Shown here: positions 32,601-38,600 of the stretch, one piece after another | Position numbering within the stretch: position 1 is the first letter of the stretch | Layout: every line of letters starts with the position of its first letter | From: Chiridota heheva | Taxonomy: Eukaryota; Echinodermata; Holothuroidea; Apodida; Chiridotidae | Direction of reading: 5' to 3' | Assembly (NCBI GenBank): GCA_020152595.1 | Contig: JAIGNY010001647.1 | Span: 1,300,001 to 1,364,000, forward strand | Length of the DNA stretch: 64,000 nucleotides | The notes under the pieces: generated by a model | Seen by the model: the letters and a program-made list of their open reading frames with translations, nothing else | Database searches by the model: none | What the model was told of the DNA's origin: nothing | Made by a program: the position numbers and the translations under genes

Positions 32601-35600
32601 CAACTTCCCAGCTTCCTGTCCCATGACATGCGACCTCTCAAAAATATTTTTATTAGCCTTTTCTCTAAGGGTTCTTATTTTTGGATGGCGAAGTGATACT
32701 TTATTAGTTCCGTGCTACCTGAAGATTAATAGGTATGAAGCACATGGTAAAATCAAGTCCAGTTGAAAGACAATTGCTGCCGCAGGATTTTAAAGGTCGA
32801 GGTCAGAGTGTCCTAATATTCCGAGCTCTTCTGTAAAATATACTCTACTTCCTGTTTAACACCAACTGCTCACTACACTATATCCTCAACCTCTTTTCAC
32901 CTCTAATCTCTCTGGCACAGTTTGACCATCATTGTCTTAGTGCCGTTGGACCTCAACAATCAACCAACCTGAGGAAAATTGTATGACACCACATCCATCT
33001 AAGTTTGTCTGCCTGCCATACTACAAAGACTGTCAATATTCATGGCAAGAATTGCTAGTTTCTCTTCTCTGAAAGGCGCTTCTCCCATAGTCTTCAAAGA
33101 GTAAAGGATGTTTACAAAATATATTTGCTTTTGAATATCCATTTATTGTATGATACACCTGAATATTTATGTTTTTTTGACATATCTGAATATTCATGTT
33201 TTGTACGATATCTGATTATCCATCTATTTTTTTACAGACCTGAATATTCATGTTTTGTTTGACATATCTGAATATTCAATTATTACGATATCTGATTATC
33301 CATCTATTGTTTTACATACCTGAATATTCATGTTTTGTTTGACATATCTGAATGAATATTCATGTATTGTACAATATCTGAATAGCCAAGTATTGTATGA
33401 AATATCTGAATATTCATGTTTTGTTTGACATATCTGAATGAATATTCATGTTCATGTATTGTATGATATTGTATATCCATGTATTGTATGACACACTTGA
33501 ATATTCATGTTTTGTTTGACATATCTGAATATTCATGTATTTTATCTTATTATCCATTTATTGTTTTACATACCTGAATATTCATGTTTTGTTTGACATC
33601 TGAATGAATATTCATTTATGATATCTGAGTATCCATGCATTGTACGATATCTGAATATCCATGTATTGTATGACAACCTGAATATTTATGTTTTGTTTGA
33701 CATATCTGAATATTCATGTATTGTACGATATCTGAATATGCATGTTTGTATGACTTATCTGAATATTTTAATGTCTTTTTGCAGTCAGTTACACAAGAAG
33801 AGGTGACTCATGAACAGCTGGGAGGATCAAAGACACATACGTCAGTGTCAGGTACTTCCTTTGTTATTGTACATTCATGTCATTGTATCCCATAGTGTGT
33901 CACTATCATGAGTCATCGTTAGAAACAAATTAAAGAGAAACATTCTCCCTGCTTATGGAAAAGTTAAATATCTAACCTCTCCCTAAGAACCCTCCCAGTG
34001 TCATAACTTTCTACATTTTGAAGCAAAGTGGTCAAACTTGTGTTTCTGTTTCTTACATGAATATTTTCTAAGGCCCCTCTGGATAAGACATTGCCATCTA
34101 CACCACCCACTATCCTTAATGAACTTCAGAAATTAATTCAGTATTAGGACATCCCCATAAACAAATTCTAGGTCAGCCCTGATGATGACTATTGCATGTC
34201 GTTTTATGACATTAGACATACTATCCTCAAGTGTCATTGTATGTCATCTACAGGTCAAAAAAAAGCACTCTATTATATGGGTTAAGACTTGCCTTTTGCA
34301 GGTCTCAGAGCCTGACAAAATGCCCACCCATGCATCACAGAGGTACGCCTTTCAGTCAATTCAAATTATATTTTTTCCATATTGATGCCTTAGAATATTT
34401 TGTATCTTTTAGACCCCGAAAAGAAAAAAAAATTTATGAGCATTTTTGGCTTATCGTTTATAATGGTATCAGTAAAAGTTAGTATTCAGCGTTATTTCTA
34501 GTTTTATTGGATTGCTGTGAAAACAACAAGTTTCAACAATGATGAAGTCTGTGACTATTATTTTTCATTATTTAAAAGAAAAGCACACATATACATATAT
34601 ACGTGTAAAAACATCAGCTATGGTGCTGTACAATAGATAAAAGGTATAAAACAAAAGTAAAAGACAATTATAGTAAAGGTAGCAATTAGGAACTAAGTCC
34701 TAAAAAAACTAAACCCTTAAATGACTAAAACCAACAGACTAAATCCTAAAATGTCAAGTGAAAATAAAATAGATGAAAGTAAGTATAAATCAATAAACAC
34801 AAGAGCTAAGATATAAATAAATTAATAAATGAAATAATTGATAATATGGATAAAAAGCTGTTAAGTACAATTTCATGGTACAAACATTTGAAAATAAAGG
34901 TCTTAAGATTCGATGGAAAAATACTGATGGTACTGGAGTTACTTATGGCTGATGGAATTGTGTTCCACAGTTTTAGGGCACAGGCACAGTAAGCTCTATT
35001 CTGAAGGACTTACAGCGATATTTAAAATCAAATTGTCATGAGAATGTAAAGAGTAACCCAATGCATATGGTTTTAGAAGGTCTTTAATGTATGATGGCAC
35101 AGTTCCATTTAGTGTCTTATAAGTATTAAAACCTGATATTCAATTCGTTCTTTGGTCAGAAGCCAGTGGAGGAGTTTGAAAGCAGAGGATATACTGTCAT
35201 ATTGATTCAAATTAAGGATAATACGGGCTGACATATTCTGAATACGCTGCAACCTATTCAAGGTTGAACTGGGAAGTCTATGTAAAAACGAATTACAATA
35301 ACCAAAATGTGAGGTGACAAGTGCATGTACAATAGTGCGAGTAGAATCAATTGAAAGATGTTTACGTAACTTTCTAATATGAAGGTTAAAACTTGCATTT
35401 TTGCATTTCTCATTAAATTCTTTTTTGATAGATAAAAAATTGTCCAAATAAACTCCAAGATACTAAACACCATTAACACAAGTAATAACAGATTCATCCA
35501 CATTCATAGTCTATCACCATTAACACAAGTAATAACAGATCCATCCACATTTATAGTCTATCATTATTAACACAAGTAATAACAGATTCATCCACATTTA

Positions 35601-38600
35601 TAGTCTATCACCATTAACACAAGTAATAACAGATCCATCCACATTTATAGTCTATCATTATTAACACAAGTAATAACAGATTCATCCACATTTATAGTCT
35701 ATCACCATTAACACAAGTAATAACAGATTCATCCACATTTATGGTCTATCATTATTAACACAAGTAATAACAGATCCATCCACATTTATAGTCTATCACC
35801 ATTAACACAAGTAATAACAGATTCATCCACATCACCATTAACACAAGTAATAACAGATTCATCCACATTTATAGTCTATCACCATTAACACAAGTAATAA
35901 CAGATTCATCCACATTTATGGTCTATCACCATTAACACAAGTAATAACAGATTCATCCACATTTATGGTCTATCACCATTAACACAAGTAATAACAGATT
36001 CATCCACATCACCATTAACACAAGTAATAACAGATCCATCCACATTTATGGTCTATCACTATTAACACAAGTAATAACAGATTCATCCACATTTATGGTC
36101 TATCACCATTAACACAAGTAATAACAGATTCATCCACATCACCATTAACACAAGTAATAACAGATCCATCCACATTTATGGTCTATCACTATTAACACAA
36201 GTAATAACAGATTCATCCACATTTATAGTCTATCATTATTAACACAAGTAATAACAGATCCATCCACATTTATAGTCTATCACCATTAACACAAGTAATA
36301 ACAGATCCATCCACATTTATAGTCTATCACCATTAACACAAGTAATAACAGATTCATCCACATTTATAGTTTATCACCATTAACACAAGTAATAACAGAT
36401 TCATCCACATTTATAGTCTATCACCATTAACACAAGTAATAACAGATCCATCCACATTTATAGTCTATCACCATTAACACAAGTAATAACAGATCCATCC
36501 ACATTTATAGTCTATCATTATTAACACAAGTAATAACAGATTCATCCACATTTATAGGCTATCACAATTAACACAAGTAATAACAGATTCATCCACATTT
36601 ATAGTCTATCACCATTAACACAAGTAATAACAGATCCATCCACATTTATAGTCTATCATTATTAACACAAGTAATAACAGATTCATCCACATTTATGGTC
36701 TATCACCATTAACACAAGTAATAACAGATTCATCCACATCACCATTAACACAAGTAATAACAGATTCATCCACATTTATAGGCTATCACCATTAACACAA
36801 GTAATAACAGATCCATCCACATTTATAGTCTATCATTATTAACACAAGTAATAACAGATTCATCCACATTTATAGTCTATCACCATTAACACAAGTAATA
36901 ACAGATTCATCCACATTTATAGTCTATCACCATTAACACAAGTAATAACAGATTCATCCACATCACCATTAACACAAGTAATAACAGATTCATCCACATT
37001 CATAGTCTATCACCATTAACACAAGTAATAACAGATTCATCCACATTTATAGTCTATCATTATTAACACAAGTAATAACAGATTCATCCACATTTATAGT
37101 CTATCACCATTAACACAAGTAATAACAGATTCATCCACATTTATAGTCTATCACCATTAACACAAGTAATAACACAAGTAATAGGCTAAGGCCTTTCTCC
37201 TCGCCCTCAACTTTATTGAGTACTCTCCTCTCAGCCACTTTGCCATTTTCTCCGACTCAAAGGCTGTTCTTACTTCAATACTTAATCTTAAATGGGATAA
37301 CCCCACTTGCCACCTCCTCCTCCGGAAACTCTTTTCTCCCACCCTCTGCAGGAAAAGTGTTCTTTTCTTCTGAATACCCAGCCGCGTTGGCATCCCTGGC
37401 AATGACAGGGCTGATGCAGCCGCTAAGCTTGCCCTCAACCTCCTCTCTACCCCTTTTCCCAAAACCCTCTCTGACATCAAACCGCTTATCGCTTCCCTTG
37501 TTCGTGACTGCTGGCAAACCTCATGGAACTCCAAATTGATAACAAACTCTATGTCATCCAGCCCACAATCTTGATCAAATCCACCATCAACAACCTCTCT
37601 CGTAACGACAATGTTAATATTACCCGTCTTTAAATTGGTCACACCCACCTCACTCACTCCCACCTCCTTATTGGTTCCCCCAACCCCTCTGTAACAATTG
37701 CCACTGCATCCTCACTACCCATCACGTTCTCCTTGCTTGCCCCCTGTACAACCGTCCCAGAGCTTCCCTTGCTCCCCACAACTCAATTGCTGGGTTCTTT
37801 CAAAAAAATCCTCCGGATAAAATTATCTCCTTCCTTCATCATGCTTCCCTCTACAACCATATTTAATTCTCCTCTTCCACCCCCTCCCTATTTTGTTTTG
37901 TTTCACCCATGCACTTCCTCTCTCGATCACAGCTTTCTGACTTTTGTTCTTGAATTTCTCTCATTCTCTCCCTGTTTTCTTTTCTTCCTACCTCTAAAAT
38001 GATCTGACCTCTCAGGCACAATTTGACCCTCGTTGTCGTGGTACCGTTAAGACCTCATCAAACAAACAAACAAACAAGTAATAACAGATTCATCCACATT
38101 TATAGTCTATCACCATTAAAACAAGTAATAACAGATCCATCCACATTTATAGTTTATCACCATTAACACAAGTAATAACAGATTCATCCACATTTATGGT
38201 CTATCACCATTAACACAAGTAATAACAGATTCATCCACATTTATAGTCTATCACCATTAAAACAAGTAATAACAGATCCATCCACATTTATAGTTTATCA
38301 CCATTAACACAAGTAATAACAGATTCATCCACATCACCATTAACACAAGTAATAACAGATTCATTTACTTTTATAGTCTATCACCATTAACACAAGTAAT
38401 AACAGATTCATTTACATTTATACTGTCTATATCAAGTTTTGAGAGTTGACTTTGAGAATCAAGAAGGATAAACTCAGTTTTTGTAATATCTACATTGCAA
38501 ATCTACTTGCAATGTAGTTATATATGTAAACCAAGATATAACTTACAGGGCTAGTTTAGTGGTCAAGCAACTTGACCTTATATGAAATGGTGAAGAAACT

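Follow-up and report, generated by a model that had tools for sequence, protein, structure and literature searches.

A single-locus 47-bp minisatellite apparently born from the reverse-transcriptase linker of a LINE copy in Chiridota heheva

Minisatellites derived from transposable elements (TEs) are well documented. In the human genome, 7,276 arrays, or 23% of minisatellites, are counted as TE-derived in the available part of Ahmed and Liang (2012; PMC3389668), which describes growth in situ and points to regions of AluS and LTR12 that are used more than others. According to the same part of that report, two established mechanisms explain the start of only 6% of these arrays; the way in which an array starts from unique sequence is thus poorly known. 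LINEs and other TEs also figure as sources of satellites and minisatellites in the accessible sections of PMC9659126 and PMC6947457, the former of which gives Phodopus PROsat, seal Pvc20 and chicken HinfI as satellites from LINE ORF2 or CR1. In Lathyrus, arrays internal to Ogre retrotransposons grow into satellites, as described in the available portion of PMC7004042.

We analysed a 64,000-nucleotide stretch of C. heheva DNA (positions 1300001-1364000 of contig C1642, from a 1.1-Gb genome assembled in 3744 contigs), hereafter the window, which holds a tandem array of ~2.05 kb in total. It lies on the minus strand and splits one linker, located at the end of a LINE reverse transcriptase (RT), into two halves. 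TRF places its first block at 35468-37174 (period 47, score 2735, 37.5 copies, with 36-bp variants among the units) and its second block, which adjoins the 5' LINE flank, at 38074-38422 (period 47, score 537, 7.7 copies). A scan of the whole window for the unit core, with up to 5 substitutions tolerated, found 45 cores; every one is inside the array region on the minus strand, with none elsewhere in the window. The 45 array segments comprise 37 units of 47 bp, 6 of 36 bp, the 5' boundary unit and one unit that is split by an insertion; the 37 full units have a mean pairwise identity of 95.2%, an average difference of 4.8%. With a unit length, 47, that does not divide by 3, the array is non-coding, and no function is evident for it. 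The initial annotation had described a linker sequence repeated about 45 times between coding flanks, and both the core count and the flanks agree with that reading. The array that it described is real and, beyond that description, shows 36-bp variants, a ~0.89-kb inserted LINE, a 3'-junction stop, a host truncated at its 5' end and a non-coding unit length.

The same annotation had called the array a satellite, a term that we do not retain. Instead of abundant, long arrays at many loci, the unit was found at one locus with ~2 kb of array, and the one other locus carries a related, different unit (both repeat counts are lower bounds). The 47-bp units stand head to tail in many copies and correspond to a TE sub-segment that occurs once in 15 of the 17 copies of the element covering the linker; the array is a single-locus TE-derived minisatellite. 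In this it is like the human TE-derived minisatellites, which are mostly single-locus, in-situ arrays from part of a TE copy, for example 17 units of 52 bp from an AluJo. It is unlike the human cases presented in the available part of that report in that its source is the RT linker of another LINE family, two independent births occurred at one segment, and single-copy relatives lie alongside (PMC3389668). PROsat, Pvc20 and HinfI share with the window array a repeat unit related to LINE coding sequence, but the accessible sections of PMC9659126 list them as satellite DNAs, whereas the window array is one ~2-kb locus still inside a LINE copy. The Lathyrus Ogre case is similar in that tandem repeats internal to a retrotransposon expand; there, however, according to the portion of PMC7004042 available, short arrays pre-exist in the 3' untranslated region and are dispersed with the element, unlike the window array. 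Broad term searches of the open-access literature found no published report of this LINE or of its unit.

The host LINE can be followed on both sides of the array. Its 3' part, containing the end of the RT ORF and the 3' UTR (34593..35507, minus strand), was delimited with blastn, which gave long alignments with 14 other copies (~75-82% identity), the homology ending at 34592-34593 in 7 copies and at 34556 in 4. The 5' stub (38379..38485, minus strand; TKTEF...), which overlaps the boundary unit, aligns to 17 copies, with a homology limit of exactly 38485 in 10 of them and between 38452 and 38490 in the others. An imperfect inverted repeat of 15 bp (38486..38521; arms 93% complementary and 6 nt apart) abuts this truncated 5' end. 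To judge from the alignments, the host copy is dead and 5'-truncated at ~38485. By eye, the flank reading shows a stop at the 3' junction of the array, TAG in the window versus AAG in the copy on contig C1717. In a tree built from 34 LINE copies, the window copy has a terminal branch of 0.095 changes per column. Pfam matched none of the LINE pieces in the window itself, and the RT identity therefore rests on another copy, L044, through which the family is placed among the non-LTR retrotransposons (LINEs) with an RT domain. In L044, RVT_1 is matched at E 5.1e-13 by an ORF piece running across YADD and the linker, and at 2.1e-7 by an upstream ORF piece; a piece of L013 reached E 0.15 only. On the former piece, the match extends to profile position 204 of 205 at residue 130, just past the linker, so that the unit derives from the last part of the RT domain. 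By the look of its motifs, the host LINE may be CR1/L2-like. A search of viral contigs with the LINE protein found no relative.

The insertion between the two array blocks is the 3' part of another LINE (~37184-38073, plus strand, ~0.89 kb), with an RNase H-like stretch whose RNase_H match (E 0.0019) is below Pfam's cut-off. Read by eye, acaagtaata on its left and (a)caagtaata on its right form a pair consistent with a target-site duplication. Because array sequence lies on both sides of this LINE, the array was there first. Among the 40 scored of 7644 candidates, the inserted LINE has 39 other places at 93-97% identity. Nineteen copies of its family contain 0 arrays in 16.6 kb of matched body versus 17 in 57 kb of flanks, but the array-free body says little, since these copies are top-scoring, full-length matches. 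In L054, a copy of the RNase H-bearing LINE, 17-bp arrays are present on both sides (L054:1-882 and 2392-3690), and the family may therefore land in arrays elsewhere too.

To compare the linker among copies, we used 34 distinct LINE loci: 5 from the search with the unit, 26 from a genome search with 901 bases of the LINE 3' part (143 candidates, 40 scored, 97 matches; 4 duplicates dropped) and 3 more. The linker is covered in 17 of the 34, being single in 15 (in L043 covered in part) and an array in 2, the window and contig C69. The window unit aligns with a 2-bp gap to positions 42-91 of the single-copy linker of C1717, and both window flanks align onto the same stretch. None of the examined copies has the linker in a two-unit state, and the 47-bp junction is absent from all 16 other linker-covering copies. 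With single linkers in 15 of the 17, birth of the 47-bp array in place from the RT linker is well supported by the comparison, as had been proposed for expansion inside one LINE copy on the initial reading. Intact copies of this LINE without similarity to the unit, and a satellite that is widespread and older than the LINE, were both looked for, and neither was found. By eye, there is no clear microhomology at the window junction, so slippage between flanking repeats is not supported there; the C69 junction has 4 bp, GTAT. The unit identity of 95.2% set against the terminal branch of the host copy indicates that the array is younger than the LINE insertion or has been homogenised since. The growth direction is ambiguous, as GTAAATGAA is found in the second unit from the 5' side and in the boundary unit, the remaining units have GTGGATGAA or GTGGATGGA, and the single-copy relatives C1717 and C561 have GTGGATGAA at that site. 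Because these relatives have GTGGATGAA there, the idea that the second unit (core at 38359) is a transitional form was dropped.

The second linker array (C69:1434197-1436077) contains 43.4 copies of a 43-bp unit, the units being 89.7% alike, and has the host LINE family on both sides, with ~60 bp without LINE likeness (by eye) between the 5' LINE flank and the first unit. Its unit corresponds to positions 53-99 of the C1717 linker versus 42-91 for the window unit. Since each unit holds bases missing from the other, descent of one array from the other is impossible and the births were independent; the linker gave rise to arrays twice, at overlapping codons. Two reciprocal genome searches found linker arrays at these two loci only (lower bounds) and no other 47-bp array. 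Besides C69 itself and the window array, the search with the C69 array recovered the single linkers of C1717, C561 and C1010 and one further place, in C2810; the last, when fetched, was a 21-bp array whose surroundings show no LINE homology within 1 kb, and was set aside. The LINE origin proposed for the window array stands, and the earlier account was incomplete in that the host is dead and 5'-truncated, another LINE has inserted and the linker expanded independently in C69.

Other segments of the same LINE also form arrays. A 13-bp unit over the YADD codons is arrayed in 6 of 14 copies that cover the site (C1717, C561, C1343, C1123, C251 and C406; local coordinates L010:3396-3683, L011:3274-3493, L015:2568-2713, L021:2606-2697, L024:2450-2708 and L026:3033-3423), with unit variants that are largely copy-specific; the C251 array has LINE homology on just one of its sides, and the C1717 copy lacks the LINE sequence immediately upstream. 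Two places of C3635, together with C3091, carry arrays of a 56-bp unit (L044:1664-2799, L045:1054-1651 and L046:846-1343), and C3130 has two units (L031, about 1890-2010). These four copies have one common junction, TTTAC followed by TGCACC (TTCAC in C3130); the three arrays contain CTGTTCAAACC; GTGGCTACTC is present in each of the four copies and, beyond them, in L043, which is unexpanded. This common junction argues for inheritance and suggests, but does not prove, that the 56-bp array is ancestral and carried by the element, in which case it may resemble the Ogre arrays of Lathyrus as presented in the available part of PMC7004042. The LINE tree, which is star-like with 2 of 31 inner branches starred and a bootstrap that is not settled, requires a minimum of 3 changes to account for the 13-bp arrays and of 4 to account for the 56-bp ones, and the latter, at face value, would mean separate gains, against one inherited array. 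A 42-bp array of 8 copies (L046:1-334) has a unit that corresponds to the 3' end of this LINE. The family may show two modes, birth of arrays within individual dead copies and possible transport of an array with the element. We tentatively entertain the idea, on balance somewhat doubtful, that the dispersed LINE copies form a natural replicate experiment in which coding segments (YADD in 6 of 14 copies, linker in 2 of 17) were repeatedly and independently turned into arrays. If so, the unexpanded copies of a segment would offer a baseline against which to measure what turns unique sequence into a minisatellite.

Against its surroundings, this LINE gave no sign of special array-proneness. In the loci other than the window and C69, TRF arrays (period ≥10, ≥2.8 copies) number 13 over 36.4 kb of non-array LINE-homologous sequence, or 0.36 per kb, and 29 over 84.7 kb of other non-array DNA, or 0.34 per kb (p = 0.87). 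The count is rough because arrays were placed by the span of the LINE match, which excluded those at the margins of a LINE (the 13-bp array of L024, for example); breaks in a LINE span counted as other sequence, and possibly inherited arrays were counted singly.

We consider it very likely that the window array arose through the following course. In the order that we infer, a LINE copy would have inserted at the locus, 5'-truncated inside its reverse transcriptase, and a ~49-bp linker-coding segment would have been tandemly duplicated in this one copy. The duplication probably involved replication slippage or template switching, with scant or absent homology in the flanks. The duplicated segment would have lost 2 bp to yield the 47-bp unit. 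From two units, unequal exchange and slippage may have led to ~45 units while variants spread, including the 36-bp deletion unit, and the younger LINE then landed in the array. Direct observations are that relatives have a single copy, that the array is positioned inside the LINE, that its breakpoints are unlike those of C69 and that the insertion falls within it.

An array that was already in the progenitor LINE and arrived by retrotransposition may apply to another segment, given the junction that the 56-bp arrays share across loci, but it is very improbable for the 47-bp unit: 15 of 17 covering copies have a single linker, the C69 breakpoints differ, neither array search found a further linker array, and the junction is absent from the 16 other covering copies examined. 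The two independent arrays over a shared core of ~38 bp would fit a linker that is a hot spot, its own sequence driving expansion in this LINE. This seems unlikely, however, as 15 linker-covering copies are unexpanded and array density in the LINE equals that of other DNA at the same loci; moreover, with several births over a ~1.9-kb reference, one overlap is unsurprising (a rough estimate, not computed). Copy numbers of arrays can be wrong in assemblies, and the copy number here comes from the assembly, yet we give very little credence to a collapsed or inflated repeat because the array is interrupted by a LINE insertion and its units vary at several sites. Capture of a pre-existing satellite by the LINE is hardly credible. 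The unit belongs to an uninterrupted stretch of the LINE ORF and is present once in relatives, the sole weak match without LINE flanks (C2810) is a 21-bp array, and we found no supporting point for capture. In place of these, birth within the truncated copy is our preferred explanation, and the window array is useful as a record of minisatellite birth whose origin is directly readable. The expanded and unexpanded versions of one segment within a LINE family allow the birth breakpoints to be read nearly to the base.

Such a readable origin had initially been regarded as rare, which is too strong a word: 18 merged arrays (period ≥10, ≥3 copies) cover 13.1% of the window, and, in the part of PMC3389668 available, nearly a quarter of human minisatellites are TE-derived. 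The window array is a clear further case of a well-documented class and an ordinary event in an array-rich stretch; it is lifted a little by the same LINE family recording several array births, two of them at the same codons. Other long minisatellites in the window lie at 42043-43307 (35-bp units), 53239-53837 (22-bp units) and 55101-55773 (27-bp units). An array of the GGGATGCCATGTGGGACAT type at 28239-29447 recurs at L010:1-107, L020:2752-3694 and L041:76-524 and is possibly a dispersed satellite.

The window also contains an ORF with an MSL2-CXC domain (13340-13954, minus strand) and, ~25 kb from it, a carboxyl-transferase exon-like piece (~39110-39230, plus strand), which we presume to be PCCB-like. 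These genes mark the DNA as eukaryotic. MSL2 and PCCB are adjacent in vertebrates.
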